Assembly (NCBI GenBank): GCA_019448385.1
Contig: JAGTXO010000001.1
Span: 1,550,001 to 1,614,000 of the forward strand
Direction of reading: 5' to 3'
Length of the DNA: 64,000 bases
Origin: Diacronema lutheri
Taxonomy: Eukaryota; Haptophyta; Pavlovophyceae; Pavlovales; Pavlovaceae
Shown here: positions 1 through 6,327 of the stretch, in pieces
Layout of the letters: the number at the start of each line of letters is the position of its first letter
Numbering within the stretch: the first letter of the stretch is position 1
Position numbers and translations under genes: made by a program
Notes under the pieces: model-generated
Told to the model about the DNA's origin: nothing
The model's database searches: none
What the model saw: the letters and a program-made list of their open reading frames with translations, nothing else

Positions 1-2944
1 CGGCATTGGCGTCGGCGCCGCTTCGCGCGCACGGCGTGTCGGGCGCCGCGGGCAAGCGCGCCGCGGCGGGTGCTGCCGCGAGCGCGCGCGACGCCGCGGG
101 CGCGCGCGCGCCGAGCGTTCCCCGCGCGCGCGGCGTCGAGCGCGCGCGCGTGGACGAGCCCGCTGCGCCGAGCGCGCGCGCCGCCGGCGGCGCGACGGCG
201 CGCACGCGCGGCAGCGTGCTCCCGGGCTTCGTGGTCAAGCGCTCGACGCTCAACGCGGGGCCGCAGGCGGTGACGGCGCAGCCCGGTGCGCGGAAGGAGC
301 TGCGGCGCATCGCGGCGGCCGTGCACAGGCTCACGACACAGGCGTACCGCGCCATCAACAAGGTGGTGCGCGACGAGGCTGCGGTGGCGAGCGCGCAGGC
401 CGTCGGCGCGGCGTCGGGCGGCCCGTCGACAAGCGTGCACACGTCGACCACGATGGACAAGGGAACCGTCCGTGCGATCTTCTCGGCGATCGGCTGGCAC
501 AAGGACGTGAGCACGTACGGTGCAGCGGCCCGAGGCAAGCCCGCCGAGCAAGCCGCCGCGCAGACCAAGGCGGCGACGGCGCGCGCCGTCGGCGAGATGG
601 CCGACGGCGTCCAGCCCGTCTGCGCGGTGGGCCTCGATAAGATCCTCGCGGAGGAGGCGACGCAGGTGTCCACCGCGTGCCTGATGCACCCATCGCGCGT
701 CGTGAACGGGCTGCTCCGCGACGTCGTCCGCGCGGCAGTCGAGCGCGACGAGGCGCTCGTCGCGCTGCCCGAGATGCAGCGAAACGCGCGCGTGCGCGAG
801 CTGTGCGAGCGGCTGCTGCGCGGCGACGTGGAGGGCGCGCGCGTCGGCTGCCCCGCCGCGCTCGACCGCCACCTGCCCGACATGGTCCTCCACAAGATCA
901 ACTACGAGTGCGCGCCCACGAAAAGGTGGAACTACGACCGGCACACGACGCGCTACTTCCTCGTGCAGATCCGCAACCTGCAGCACGTGGCCAAGGGGCA
1001 GGCGCTGCTCTGCCGGCTCGCGCGCCTGTACACGCAGCTCACCGACCGGCCGCCGCGGTATAATGTGGCGCCGCTGCGCACGCACAATGTGCGCGCGAGG
1101 CGCGGCTGCCGCTACCGCCGCCGAGCGCCCAAGCGCGCGCGCCGCCGCCGTGCGCGCCGCCCCGCGGCCAGGTTGGTCACGCGCCCGCGCGCTCGCGCGC
1201 CGCGCGCTGCGCGCAGGTGCCGCGCAACGTGCGCCTCACCGCGAACGCCATCTGGGAGACGCTCCCGGACGACGAGCGCAAGGAGCTGCGCGCGCGGCTC
1301 AAGGCGCTGGACCTGCGCGACCACGATGGCGAGCCGATCAAGTGGACCGCTCAAGGCGGCTCGTTTGTCCCGCCAATGTCCGACGTGCGCGTCAGGTACG
1401 CGGTCTTCGCGACGCGCTTCGACATCTCCAACCGCGTCTTCGACTACGCCGGGCGCGAGCGGCCGCCGGCCGATCTGCCGTGGCACGCGCGGCGCTCGTG
1501 GGTGGGCCTCGCGCCGCTGCCGCGCGTGCCGCTCCCGGGCCGGCAGCCCGTCACGTCGGTGGTGACGGATGGCGTCGCCGTGCACGCCGTCGCGACCGTC
1601 CTCGTGCCGAAGGCGCAGGCGCCGGCCGGCAGCTCGAGCGTCCTGCACCGCTGGCGCCGGCCGGACGGGCGCATCGCCGTCGCGCTCGGCTCCGAGCTGC
1701 GGCGGGCGATCGACATCGAGGAGGCGGTCGTCGTCGCGGCCGACCCGAACATGGGCAACATCACCACCTACTCTGCGCACGTCGGGCGGGCGGCCGTCTG
1801 GCGGCAGTTCACGCAGCGCGCGCGCGCGCGCGCCGCGGGCTTTGCGCGCGAGACGGCCAAGACCAACGCGGCGCGGCGGCGCGTGCGCACCGACGGGCGC
1901 GGCGAGGAGTTCAGCGTGGAGGCGGACGAGGCGCGGCTTGGCGAGGCGCACAGCGCCAAGGTGCTCGACGCGGGCAAATACATCGCCTTCCACCGCGAGA
2001 GCGCGCGGGTGCGCGAGCGCGCCGCCGAGCACGTGTACGACGCGCCGGCGCGCCGCAAGGAGCGCTGGCGGCGCGACAGCGGCGGGCGGTCCAACGCGGC
2101 GCGCGTCGCCGAGGCGCTCATCGCGGCGCACTGCGTCGACGGCGTGACGCGCGACCGGCTGCTCGTGTGCGTGGGCAAGTGGCTGCACGACCACAAGGGC
2201 GCGCAGCCCAAGGGCGCGCCGCCCGCCTTCCAGGTGGGGCTGCTGCGCGAGCTGCGGCGGCGCGGCGTCGCGGCCGTCTTCGTACCCGAGCCGTACACGT
2301 CGATGCACTGCTCGATGCCGCGGCTCGCCAAGGGCGGCAGGCTGCAGCGCTGCGGCGCGGAGCTCGCGCAGAACCCGCGCCTGCCCGTGGCAAAGGGCGG
2401 CACGCGCACGGTGCACGCGCTCGTCATCTGCCCGGCGTGCAACGGCGGCAAGAAGCCCGTGCACCGCGACTACAACGCCGCGCGCAACATCTTCTACGAC
2501 GTGCACGACATTGCGGCGCGCGCGGCCGGGCGCGACACCACGTCGACGCCTGAGCGCTTTGCCCTCGTGCTCGCCTGGTGGGCGCGCGGCGAGGTGTGGG
2601 AGCGTGAGGAGCGCATGGTGCACGGCGAGGGCGACGACTGCGACGACGAGGGCGACGGCGGCGACGAGGGCGACGACGAGGGCGACGACGACGACGACGA
2701 CGACGCCAGCGGCGACGGCGGCGGCGGCGAGGGCGACGGCGACGGCGACGGAGACGGAGGCGGCGGCGGCGACGACGACGATGACGGCGGGGGAGGCGGC
2801 GGCGGCGACGGCGGTGGCGACGACGGCGGCGGGCGCGGCGGCGGTGGCGGCGGCGGCGCTCGCGCCCGCACCCCCGCCCGCGGAGCTGCCAGCGCCAGTG
2901 CCGGCGGCGGCAGCGCGCGCGGGCCGAAGCGCGGCCGGCGTTGA
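1..2944 (+). CDS. Fanzor (eukaryotic TnpB-like) RNA-guided endonuclease, 5' partial
   Basis: Two exons: up to 1088, then 1217-2944. Intron 1089-1216 (GTGCGC...GCGCAG) joins in phase 0 and links two otherwise different frames. The first exon is open to the window edge with no clear ATG, so the 5' end is probably missing. Family knowledge: Fanzors are eukaryotic relatives of transposon TnpB that cut DNA guided by an RNA encoded beside or overlapping their 3' end. Seen here: an N-terminal helical region; RuvC-I Asp in ADPNMGN (codon 1742-1744); RuvC-II Glu in PEPYTSM (2288-2290), with the E-x-x-T-S spacing of TnpB; zinc-ribbon cysteines at codons 2309, 2351, 2429 and 2438 (the last two as CPAC); and RuvC-III Asp in HRDYNAARNI (2468-2470). 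After about 2610 comes a long Asp/Gly/Glu low-complexity tail ending in the basic PKRGRR, perhaps a nuclear localisation signal. The catalytic core looks intact. Whether it is still mobile cannot be judged. Confidence 0.88.
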
Positions 2945-3353
2945 CGCACGGCCGAGCCGCGCAGCGGTCGACGCTTTGCGGGCTCTGCCCAGGTCGCGCG
3001 CGGCTGGCGACGCGTACCGCATTCGGCACGCCCGTGCACGCCGCCACCCGTGGCCGAGCGCGCCGCACCAGCCGGCCCGCTCCAACCGCCGTGCGGATCA
3101 CGGACGCTCGCTACGGCTCGTCGGCGCGCGTCACCTGCGCCGGCGGCCACGGCGCCGTCTGCTCCGGCCTCGTCGCGAGCAGCCCGACCGCTGCTCGCCG
3201 CCCGCACGCCGCCGCAGCAACGCTGCGCGTCGTGCTCCCCCGCTCGCCAAACGCGAAGAGCTCCCTCACAAGGACGTCCTTCCGAATGGCCCGCGCTGCA
3301 CTCGGGGCGCTCGATCGTGCCCCTGATCGGATTTGGCTTGACCATCTATACTA
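2945..3353. other. Non-coding interval after the Fanzor gene; candidate guide-RNA/element-end region
   Basis: This 409-base gap separates the convergent Fanzor and JmjC genes and is one of the longest gaps in the window. No convincing protein is seen in it. It is GC-rich except for the last 30 bases (about 3325-3360), where an AT-rich patch precedes the JmjC stop codon. In TnpB and Fanzor loci the guide RNA and the right element end usually lie here. I see no terminal inverted repeat or target-site duplication, so this role is inference from position only. Confidence 0.35.
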
Positions 3354-5018
3354 TTAATTGTCCGCGGGCCTCTGCGTGTGCCACTCGAGATCGCGCCGGC
3401 GCGCCAGCCGCCGGATGCGCACGCGCTCGGCGTGCGCGCGCGCCATGGTGGCCGCGCCAAGCGGTGCGAGAACCACCGCCTCTGGCGCGAGCGCGCCAAG
3501 CCTCGCGCTCAGCTCCGCGTCGAGGGCGCGCCAGCCGGCCGGGGTCTCTGCCGCGGCGCTCCATACGCCTGCGCGCGGCCGGAGGATGTGCGGGTCCGCC
3601 CGGCCGTTCTCCGAGCTCGCAGCCGCCTGCGACCACGCGAACGCCGACGACGACAGCTCGATCCCGCCGGCGGCTCCGCCCGCGCGCCGCTCGCCCCCGC
3701 CGCCCTGCTCGGCAAGGCGCAGCAGGGCGCCGAGCCGCTCGGCGCTCGCCGGCGCGTCAGCCCAGCCGACGGCGTGCATCGGCAGCGCCGCGCGCAGCTC
3801 GAGCGCAACTCTCTCACCGCTCCACGTGAGTGCGCTGACCGCGGCGTGCAGCAGCTCCGCCCAGCGCAGTCCCGTGCGCGCATCTGTCCCGCCCACCTCG
3901 CGGCGCGCAGCGGCCGGACAGCGCGCCGCCTCCACGCCGCGCGTGCGCGCGCACGCATCGATCACCGCGTGCACGACGCCCGCCCACGTGGCGTCCTTGC
4001 GGAGCACGCCGAGCGTGACGTGCATCGAATGCGCCGAGCTGTTCTGCGAGGCGGCCTCGTGCGGCACGCCGCGCGGCAGGACGAGGACGTCGCCAGGCCG
4101 CAGAGTGACAGGCACGGTCGGTGTGGCGTGCAGGAGCGCGGCAGAGGGCGCAAACTTGCGCTCGGCGTCAGGAAGCGGAAGGAACGGCTCGTACAACTGC
4201 CAGTCCTTCTCGCCCTCCAGCTGCACGACGATCACATCCATCGCGTCGAAGTGCGCCTCAAAGCCCTGCTTGCCACCAGCTGTCAGGTACGCATTCGCGT
4301 TCACAGGCAGCCGGACCGCTGCCTCGAGCGACTCGCACAGCGCGGCGACGCGCGCGTCACGCTGATCCACGTCGTTGATCAGCACCGTGAACCCCTCGCC
4401 AAACTTGGCCCACAACTCCTCCGCGCCCAGCGCCGCGTCGGGCTGCCCATACTTGCCGGTGCGCAGCTCGCCGTTGTGCCACACGCGTGTGAGCAGCGAC
4501 ACGTCCTCGTGGTTGCGAGGCGGCCGCCGCTCGGCCGCGCGCGTCGAGGCGCCGTGCGTGATGACGCGCTCGATCAGATCCACTCCAAGCAGCTGGGCAA
4601 AGTGGCCGGGCGCACCGCCGCGCGCGACGAGGAGCGCGCGCGGCTCTGGCGCCGGCGCGAGGTAATCGTCGATCAGCGCGCGGACGCTGAGCGGGTGGAG
4701 CAGCTGCTCGACAAGTGACGCGTCGGTCGACGGCGCATACGGTGGGCTGGCCGAACCGTCGAGCTCGGCCATGCGCGAAAGCCGCGGCGAGCCCTCAACG
4801 GGCTCGAGGTGCGAGCCGCTCTGCCGCTCGTACAGCTCAGTACGCGCGCGCGGCCCGTCGGCGAGCGGACGCGGCGTGCGCGTGCGCACGCTCTGGGTTG
4901 AGGGCGAACTTGTTCGCCACGCGATGAACGCGACGCCGACCGCAAGCGTCGCTGCCACCAGCGCCGGCGTGCCTCTCGCCGTCGGGGACGCGGTCTCACG
5001 TCGCGTCCGCGGCGCCAT
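3354..5018 (-). CDS. JmjC / cupin_4 Fe(II)-2-oxoglutarate oxygenase with N-terminal membrane anchor
   Basis: One exon, 554 aa, ATG at 5018. The core resembles the RIOX (MINA53/NO66) and bacterial RoxA ribosomal oxygenases, which hydroxylate ribosomal proteins. The metal site is visible as H256-x-D258 in AHFDAMDV, followed by the QLEGEKDWQLYEP strand typical of cupin_4, and a distal His320 in LPRGVPHEA after RPGDVLVLP. Residues about 18-37 form a hydrophobic segment (VAATLAVGVAFIAW) after a short basic start, giving a signal anchor, which is odd for an enzyme family usually found in nucleolus or cytosol. Residues 45-110 look disordered. It converges on the Fanzor gene and shares a 16-base head-to-head interval with the next kinase gene. 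The family call is good; the substrate is unknown. Confidence 0.78.
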   Translation of the reverse strand: MAPRTRRETASPTARGTPALVAATLAVGVAFIAWRTSSPSTQSVRTRTPRPLADGPRARTELYERQSGSHLEPVEGSPRLSRMAELDGSASPPYAPSTDASLVEQLLHPLSVRALIDDYLAPAPEPRALLVARGGAPGHFAQLLGVDLIERVITHGASTRAAERRPPRNHEDVSLLTRVWHNGELRTGKYGQPDAALGAEELWAKFGEGFTVLINDVDQRDARVAALCESLEAAVRLPVNANAYLTAGGKQGFEAHFDAMDVIVVQLEGEKDWQLYEPFLPLPDAERKFAPSAALLHATPTVPVTLRPGDVLVLPRGVPHEAASQNSSAHSMHVTLGVLRKDATWAGVVHAVIDACARTRGVEAARCPAAARREVGGTDARTGLRWAELLHAAVSALTWSGERVALELRAALPMHAVGWADAPASAERLGALLRLAEQGGGGERRAGGAAGGIELSSSAFAWSQAAASSENGRADPHILRPRAGVWSAAAETPAGWRALDAELSARLGALAPEAVVLAPLGAATMARAHAERVRIRRLARRRDLEWHTQRPADN

Positions 5019-5034
5019 CCCGACTCGCGAATTG

Positions 5035-6327
5035 ATGAGGCGCTCGAAAAGGAGCTCGATGCTGGTCCGCGAGCGCTACCGCGTCCACGCGGCGAAATAC
5101 CTGGGCCACGGCTCACAGGGCACGGTATGCCGCGCGCTCGACGAGATTTCAGGCGTGCCGCTTGCCGCCAAGCTCTTCTCCGCCGCCCAAGCCAAGGCTG
5201 GCGCGCACGAGGCGGAGGTCCTGCGGCGCGTGGACGGGTGCGAGCTCGTGACGGCATATGTGGACTTTTGTGAGCTGGTGAAGCCGTCAGAGGACGGTGA
5301 GGTCAGTGGCGTTGTCCTGCCTCCGGCGTCCGTGCTTTTGATGGAGTTCGTCACGGGTGGCGACCTCCTCGCACGCCTCCTAGCGGGCGGCGCGGTCGCC
5401 GAGCTGTCCGCGCGCTCCGTGTTTGCCGATCTGGCGTGCGCGATCGCGCACTGTCATTCGCGAGGGATTGCGCACCGCGACGTCAAGCTCGAAAATGTGC
5501 TGCTTGACATGGACGGGCGCGTCAAGCTGGCCGACTTTGGGCTCGCGGCAATCGTGCGCACACGGCTCGACGAAGCCGAGCGCTTGCTCCTTGACCGATG
5601 CGGCTCGAAGGCATATGTTGCTCCCGAGGTGATCGCCAGCAGCGCGCAGCCCTATGTCGGCTCGGCGGTCGACGTATGGGCGGCGGGCGTGTGCCTGTTT
5701 GCTATGGTCGCTGCCTTTTTCCCGTTCGACATCGCCTGCCCGCAGCGCGACTGGCGCGTGCCACACGTGCTCGCCGCACAGGCGCACGGCGATTCGAGCT
5801 GCCTCGTGCTCTTCGCGCTCGCGCAGCGGCCGTGTCCATTCTCGCAGCCGCTCCTCGACCTGCTCGACCGGATGCTGCTTTTCGACGCGCGTGCGCGCGC
5901 GAGCCTCGACGAGGTGCTCCGTTCGGCGTGGCTCCAAGCGTTGACTGACCCCGACGCCGGCGCCTGGCGTGCGCCGAACGACGCGGCATCCGAACTCGCG
6001 TCCGACGCGGCGGCCGCCACGGCGGAAGCACAGGCCTCGGAAACGTGCGTTTCGGGCCCGCAGGAGGAGTTGGGCGCGCCGGTCGAGGTGATCGTCCTGG
6101 ACGACACTGCAGGCGACGTCTTCCGCAGTGTCTCCCTCAGCCGTTTGGATGCCGACCAACCTGGCGCCACGACGTTTGACGACGTCGTCACGGACGCCGA
6201 CGTATACCGCTCGCTCGCGTTGGCCGTCGGCCTCGTGCCAAGCGGCGTGAGCAAGGCCGTGCCGGCGCTTTGCCGGATGCCCGCGTGCAACGGCTGGGCT
6301 GCCCTTGGGCGCGACCACGTCTTGTGA
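5035..6327 (+). CDS. Serine/threonine protein kinase
   Basis: One exon, 430 aa from the ATG at 5035; a second ATG at 5059 is possible. More upstream ATGs would lie inside the divergent JmjC gene. The kinase domain starts almost at once: glycine loop GHGSQGTV (about 24-31), Lys46 in AAKLF, HRDVKLEN with catalytic Asp149, DFG at Asp167, and YVAPEV in the activation segment. The order and spacing are those of CAMK/SNF1-type kinases, and all catalytic residues are present. The C-terminal 130 residues are acidic and low in complexity, with no second domain recognised. The gene is convergent with the XRN-like gene, 103 bases between stops. The substrate is unknown. Confidence 0.85.
   Translation: MRRSKRSSMLVRERYRVHAAKYLGHGSQGTVCRALDEISGVPLAAKLFSAAQAKAGAHEAEVLRRVDGCELVTAYVDFCELVKPSEDGEVSGVVLPPASVLLMEFVTGGDLLARLLAGGAVAELSARSVFADLACAIAHCHSRGIAHRDVKLENVLLDMDGRVKLADFGLAAIVRTRLDEAERLLLDRCGSKAYVAPEVIASSAQPYVGSAVDVWAAGVCLFAMVAAFFPFDIACPQRDWRVPHVLAAQAHGDSSCLVLFALAQRPCPFSQPLLDLLDRMLLFDARARASLDEVLRSAWLQALTDPDAGAWRAPNDAASELASDAAAATAEAQASETCVSGPQEELGAPVEVIVLDDTAGDVFRSVSLSRLDADQPGATTFDDVVTDADVYRSLALAVGLVPSGVSKAVPALCRMPACNGWAALGRDHVL

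Follow-up and report, generated by a model that had tools for sequence, protein, structure and literature searches.

A Fanzor-type nuclease gene, likely joined to a chromodomain, at the end of a recently amplified giant transposon family in Diacronema lutheri

A stretch of 64,000 nucleotides from the genome of the haptophyte alga Diacronema lutheri (C9:1550001-1614000, hereafter the window) opens at its left edge with a gene that carries the catalytic residues of a Fanzor, which raises the question whether such a gene serves the alga or a mobile element. A sequence-only reading of the window had taken it for an intron-bearing nuclease that may be functional or domesticated. On searching the assembly (43.49 Mb, 103 contigs) we found that the gene is part of a giant, recently active transposon family and not of the host. 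The explanation that we favour, with rather more confidence than doubt, is that the left edge of the window falls within the last gene of a 29.1-kb element, one of a family of giant elements recently amplified in D. lutheri, and that this gene likely encodes a chromodomain-Fanzor. The features used are the following, in window coordinates unless a contig is named.

1-3351, plus strand: the rightmost 3.35 kb of a mobile element of 29,114 bp, with 3351 as the point where the copies cease to be homologous
3-1088, plus strand: end of a 4,613-aa open frame (frame A), by frame and GC phase, with the Fanzor N-terminal lobe seemingly from about 225, a start that is our reading by comparison with other Fanzors
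1089-1216, plus strand: probable intron of 128 nt, GT...AG; the rival is a programmed or accidental -1 frame switch
1217-2944, plus strand: exon 2 (575 aa and stop), with RuvC core, TNB zinc ribbon and acidic/glycine-rich tail
1742-1744, plus strand: first RuvC Asp, in AADPNMGN (DPN, not DPG)
2288-2290, plus strand: RuvC Glu at the alternative Fanzor position, in EPYTSMHC, six residues ahead of the first zinc-ribbon Cys
2309-2440, plus strand: zinc ribbon, with Cys at 2309, 2351, 2429 and 2438
2468-2470, plus strand: third RuvC Asp, in HRDYNAARNI
2945-3351, plus strand: 3′ region and right end, the expected guide-RNA place, studied by folding and Rfam
3329-3351, plus strand: right terminus GGATTTGGCTTGACCATCTATAC, with 194 exact copies in the genome and none of the reversed control
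C9:1549781-1549933, plus strand: chromodomain in frame A, just left of the window

The window copy of the element spans C9:1524238-1553351 (29,114 bp), its left 25.8 kb lying outside the window, and homology among copies breaks off at both of these ends. When the 2,944-bp stretch at the start of the window was used as query, all 40 scored matches (of 1,680 candidates) were long, with 97-100% identity, and 39 covered essentially the whole query; in 19 further copies the homology reaches window 3348-3359 and then stops. A 24-mer from the left end has 210 exact copies in the genome against none for its control. Among 20 copies in which the right-end anchor was read, 17 end in CCATCTATAC, two vary (L015, L025) and in one it was not found (L019). 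On the left, 16 of the 25 other copies whose main match reaches the end begin at the same base and the others no more than 9 bases away; 17 of the 21 left junctions read start with CTATATA or CTATGTA, two with GTATATA and two differ more. The flanks of the copies read are unrelated to each other. The element is therefore a recent high-copy transposon family with about 200 near-identical copies. Domestication had seemed plausible from the intact active site and the probable intron, yet a gene that lies inside a near-identical mobile family of this size, with precise ends (194 exact copies of the right one and 210 of the left) and unrelated flanks, is the end of a transposon; a domesticated single gene is ruled out by copy number and precise ends, and we regard a domesticated host gene in any form as very improbable.

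Pairing of the ends on contigs C1 to C43 (88 right ends, of 100 listed, and 99 left ends) gave 59 pairs with a total of 1.65 Mb, of which 12 measure 21.4-21.6 kb, 7 measure 26.0-26.9 kb, 8 measure 29.1-29.4 kb and 24 measure 30.9-31.1 kb, the 8 remaining pairs lying between 12.7 and 35.9 kb. As 29 of the 88 right ends and 40 of the 99 left ends lacked a partner within 40 kb, many copies may be incomplete or have a changed other end. By extrapolation, 194 copies at a mean of 28 kb would make up about one eighth of the genome. It may be noted that the D. lutheri genome paper gives 22.9% repeats, and that neither the word Helitron nor the string transpos- occurs in its searched text (PMC8379373). 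Also, contigs C1, C12 and C8 end exactly at the right end of the element, where the assembly broke on copies that exceed the length of most reads.

The nuclease itself was read again from the window sequence. The Asp, Glu and Asp codons at 1742-1744, 2288-2290 and 2468-2470 share one reading frame, and these positions and the four cysteines of the sequence-only reading proved correct. Exon 2 scores 28.4 bits against the TNB profile PF07282 (cut-off 26.3), which together with the intact triad bears out the kinship with Fanzor and TnpB that had been proposed. A frame of this size (575 codons, with the dinucleotide content of exon 2) stayed open in only 3 of 1000 simulations, and GC at codon positions indicates plus-strand coding whose phase changes at about window 1000. 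The superfamily motif D-X(125,275)-[TS][TS]-X-X-[C4 zinc finger]-X(5,50)-RD of Bao and Jurka (PMC3627910) is present, with 184 residues after D1742, TSMH before C2309 and 8 residues from C2438 to RD. PMC10711439 gives as the Fanzor fingerprint a Glu at an alternative position, six residues ahead of the zinc finger, together with DPG ('near exclusively') at RuvC1 and CxxC as the first knuckle. The window nuclease has the first of these (E2288-PYTSMH-C2309), but it reads AADPN in all 20 copies read, and its zinc ribbon is spaced CX13C ... CX2C with an unusual first knuckle (CSMP). Judged by these residues we class it as a divergent Fanzor-type nuclease, divergent because of DPN and the irregular first knuckle despite the superfamily motif and the alternative Glu. 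A search of PDB gave no match with a significant E-value, and the predicted structure of exon 2 was left out of the evidence (mean pLDDT 40). No relatives in viral contigs were confirmed by two contig scans, and no IS607-like carrier features were seen at the element as far as it was examined.

A second Fanzor family in the same genome (L001-L008, L056) has a core homologous to the window nuclease (tblastn 5e-8 to 5.6e-9) and the same D/E/D layout, exon 2 being 30% identical in the alignment. Its loci include L005+L056, and at least 14 places score 43.9-44.5 bits. Unlike the window family it has DPG and a regular CX2C (aligned copy L002) and stays in one frame where the window family has its probable intron, and no chromodomain or exonuclease was seen by eye in its 1,586-aa frame. 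In the window family both exons are open and the triad is kept in 19 of the 20 copies read, L014 being frame-broken in exon 2; these 20 were picked from the 40 scored matches of 1,680 candidates, with a bias towards intact ones. A frame of at least 574 aa surrounds the zinc ribbon in 108 of the 116 places assigned to the family by score, 150 of 306 candidates having been scored. The many disrupted copies that would have spoken for relaxed selection were thus not encountered in either set (19 of 20; 108 of 116). Within this one genome the 20 copies gave 14 synonymous and 21 non-synonymous differences in the exon 2 core (0.54 of expectation, a weak signal), 4 and 7 in the exon 2 tail (0.58), and 32 and 92 in a 3.9-kb stretch of frame A (1.12). 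These ratios carry little weight because the non-coding 3′ region, treated likewise, gives 0.43. The triad kept in the distant second family is stronger evidence than the substitution ratios. What stands of the suggestion that the gene may be functional is that the family is mobile, mostly intact and possibly functional for the element.

Whether the two parts of the nuclease are joined by splicing or by a change of reading frame is less clear. The codon-usage score is about zero in all three plus-strand frames from about 1085 to about 1200, and GT-AG at 1089-1216 is, in the fitting length class, the top-scoring splice pair among those listed (137.5). The 128-nt GT...AG stretch is present in 20 of 20 copies read and is therefore a family trait, so the earlier idea that this gene gained its intron through long residence in the nucleus does not fit one of about 200 near-identical elements. 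We consider splicing at 1089-1216 probable, short of proof, from these signals; a direct switch of frame slightly outscores the best splice pair (140.4), and to that extent the spliceosomal intron of the sequence-only reading stands in qualified form. If ribosomes instead shifted by -1 somewhere from 1064 to about 1260, the product would be a single protein whose linker is rich in arginine, and alignment with the second Fanzor family gives equal scores for both hypotheses. This alternative we hold to be unlikely, though well worth keeping in view, as about 110 nt lack coding signal in any plus-strand frame, an obvious slippery heptamer was not seen (by eye only), and 21% of D. lutheri genes have a single intron and 34% several (PMC8379373). 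A frameshift private to the window copy is ruled out by its presence in all 20 copies. Also, the window copy had been suspected to be the broken one when set against the 1,015-aa frame of other copies, which is wrong, since the difference is a frame B stop at 1061-1063, upstream of the switch.

Position 1 of the window, given before as the start of the gene, is the edge of the window only. Frame A stays open for 13.8 kb (4,613 aa), mostly upstream of the window, and has a coding GC phase; the longest frame that 300 simulations produced was 1,584 aa. Its chromodomain scores 46.9 bits against PF00385 (cut-off 25.1, 2.6e-12) and has a CDY-like chromodomain as PDB match (8.6e-12), with which the Y of TYEVE and the W and Y of RWRGY align as aromatic cage, the cage positions being taken from HP1. 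Between the chromodomain and the Fanzor N-terminus there is no stop, and no Met occurs between C9:1549628 and window 453, therefore a full-length, ATG-started nuclease in frame A has the chromodomain as part of it, barring the splicing of a further exon. Of 150 chromodomain places scored genome-wide (260 candidates), 146 fit the Fanzor-element family by score, and 102 of these lie in frames of at least 4,000 aa. One of the 146 (C9:424417, minus strand) lies oddly inside a plus-strand copy. Near the end of frame A, upstream of the chromodomain-Fanzor part, lies a RecE/lambda-type exonuclease (phrog_434, 9.8e-17; TIGR03033, 2.2e-6, and PF09588, 0.0057, both below their cut-offs). The last gene of the element thus most likely encodes a chromodomain-Fanzor protein, to judge from the frame, which would have 1,062 aa if the last Met before the chromodomain is the start and the intron is spliced, and would be far longer if the whole of frame A is translated. 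Ulp1-like protease repeats, suspected by eye in the long frames, gave no PDB match for the one piece tested and no Pfam match, and the idea was given up.

Going from its left end to its right, the 29-kb copy contains a PIF1 helicase, what is left of a ubiquitin hydrolase, a 1,346-aa frame with no named domain and the 4,613-aa frame. The PIF1 near its left end occurs as two halves in different frames (2.7e-23 and 6.5e-19) and looks broken by missing sequence. Introns in this helicase are unlikely, as the helicase motif that we take to be expected there seems to be missing rather than interrupted. In the 31-kb class the PIF1 match extends over profile positions 76-219, mostly in 509-aa or 686-aa frames, and thus further than in the class of the window copy (profile 104-218, 463 aa); because of this the 31-kb class may be closer to autonomous. 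The ubiquitin hydrolase (UCH) is at 7.3e-15 in a 21.6-kb copy (L031:677-1993) and mostly lost in the 29-kb copy, where it scores 4.3e-5, just under the cut-off. The Pfam scans of the 29-kb copy excluded most minus-strand and short frames, and DDE transposases were covered by those scans alone.

How the element moves was examined from its ends and from genome-wide profile searches, in which no family-wide Helitron Rep, reverse transcriptase or tyrosine recombinase gene was found. RVT_1 and Phage_integrase have 16 places each in the genome, far fewer than the roughly 200 copies, which leaves little room for LTR/LINE or Crypton/DIRS elements. No inverted match of at least 7 exists between the 80-bp ends, and no target duplication of 3 or 4 bp was found in 10 junction pairs. 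Intron-bearing Fanzor1 genes in non-autonomous Helitron2 elements are already published (PMC3627910), and the PIF1 helicase near the left end, together with the lack of terminal inverted repeats and of a clear target duplication, would suit a Helitron2-type element moved in trans by an autonomous Helitron, with Fanzor, chromodomain and exonuclease as passengers. This is the more serious of the alternatives, and we consider it possible though doubtful: the Rep profile PF14214 has a single genome-wide match (on C63), and this Rep (L057), used as a query, finds only itself; the ends read CTATATA...CTATAC and not TC...CTRR, the end hairpins are no better than shuffles in DNA folding (z 0.06, 0.33 and -1.19), and no base preference above 0.25 bits exists at ten positions on each side (17 left and 19 right flanks). 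The layout of the element recalls a Helitron, but the defining domain was not found in the family, and we have not assigned Helitron membership, the helicase having been found and the Rep not. It may be noted that the piece read around the only Rep match (C63:35601-36650) looks fragmentary. A Replitron-like or other HUH mobility, with CTATATAC and CTATAC as short direct terminal repeats and 2-bp duplications, seems improbable. TATAC is common to both ends of the window copy, and of the 10 junction pairs 3 have flanks that agree at 2 bp (p 0.013 by permutation), in keeping with the direct terminal repeats of 5-11 bp and duplications of 2-8 bp given for Replitrons (PMC10741241); yet only these 3 pairs match and none at 3 or 4 bp, about half of the left ends have TATAG instead of TATAC, Replitrons are described at 0.9-4 kb in the same paper, and no HUH protein was recognised.

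Our preferred reading of a recently amplified element with its own chromodomain-Fanzor starts from the ends, copy number, shared open frames, chromodomain, exonuclease domain and Fanzor-type catalytic residues observed here. The chromodomain would bind H3K9-methylated chromatin, the Fanzor would bind an RNA from the right end of the element, and the protein would make RNA-guided double-strand cuts. Such a cut might further be resected by the exonuclease, and the element could spread or be retained by repair copying, a step taken by analogy with proposals for TnpB and Fanzors in general; repair copying has been proposed for HUH-associated Fanzors (PMC10432273). In the expected guide-RNA place, four 150-nt windows (2902-3351) fold slightly better than shuffles (z -0.71 to -1.67), and Rfam gave no match over cut-off in the element, one match far below cut-off lying outside it. 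A more far-reaching form, in which a giant transposon has no classical transposase and relies for its spread on the RNA-guided nuclease that it encodes, we regard as a long shot when all its steps are taken jointly: the chromodomain would bring the nuclease to silent chromatin and the RNA would select where it cuts; the broken DNA would then be resected by the RecE-type exonuclease of that polypeptide, and break-induced copying of the element would be driven by the PIF1-type helicase, which the 31-kb class retains better. The flanks contain no target-adjacent motif, since no base preference was seen, and this argues against the simplest donor-site recutting.

Among known systems, CRe-1, 2 and 3 of Chlamydomonas reinhardtii (Bao and Jurka 2013, PMC3627910) come close, being Fanzors with introns in an alga, of high copy number with recent copies, on a carrier without terminal inverted repeats and with Helitron traits. 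Unlike them the window family is 21-31 kb long, with no Rep found and no recognisable Helitron-type ends, and has a chromodomain and a RecE-type exonuclease in the frame of the Fanzor. SpuFz1 of Spizellomyces punctatus (Saito et al. 2023, PMC10432273) likewise is a TnpB-family nuclease of a many-copy eukaryotic transposon, with a 2.1-kb element, inverted repeats and a demonstrated guide RNA of its own. A sequence comparison with SpuFz1 gave no significant match (E 0.51 for the second Fanzor family; the window protein has none among the matches listed). Chromodomains are carried by chromoviral integrases. These share with the window family a chromodomain on the DNA-acting enzyme of a mobile element, whereas the enzyme is the integrase of an LTR element there and an RNA-guided-type nuclease here; accessory chromodomains of LTR retrotransposons are named in PMC6338049. 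Fanzors in transposons are already known, and no chromodomain-Fanzor fusion was found in the Fanzor literature searched, which was covered in part and does not establish absence from print; what is new here, and can be tested, is this fusion together with an exonuclease that shares its frame. If expressed, the fusion would be an RNA-guided-type nuclease with its own chromatin-targeting domain, on a carrier that has recently filled a small algal genome, and the role of a Fanzor for its transposon could then be tested directly on about 200 near-identical copies whose ends are known.

Around the window copy a few further observations were made. The element lies directly behind a ribosomal-oxygenase-like host gene (JmjC_2, window 3354-5075, minus strand; PF08007, 1.1e-24), whose stop codon is 3 bp from the right end of the element, and a 553-aa open frame at window 4666-6327 (plus strand) resembles a Ser/Thr protein kinase by eye. 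AAGCGT(CGTTA) stands beside the element in 4 of 21 left flanks (L038, L044, L049 and the window copy), perhaps from insertion in or beside another repeat. Just left of the element lies a 594-bp direct repeat (97.5%; C9:1522815-1524222, L035:2815-4222), relatives of which are present beside the C57 copy.
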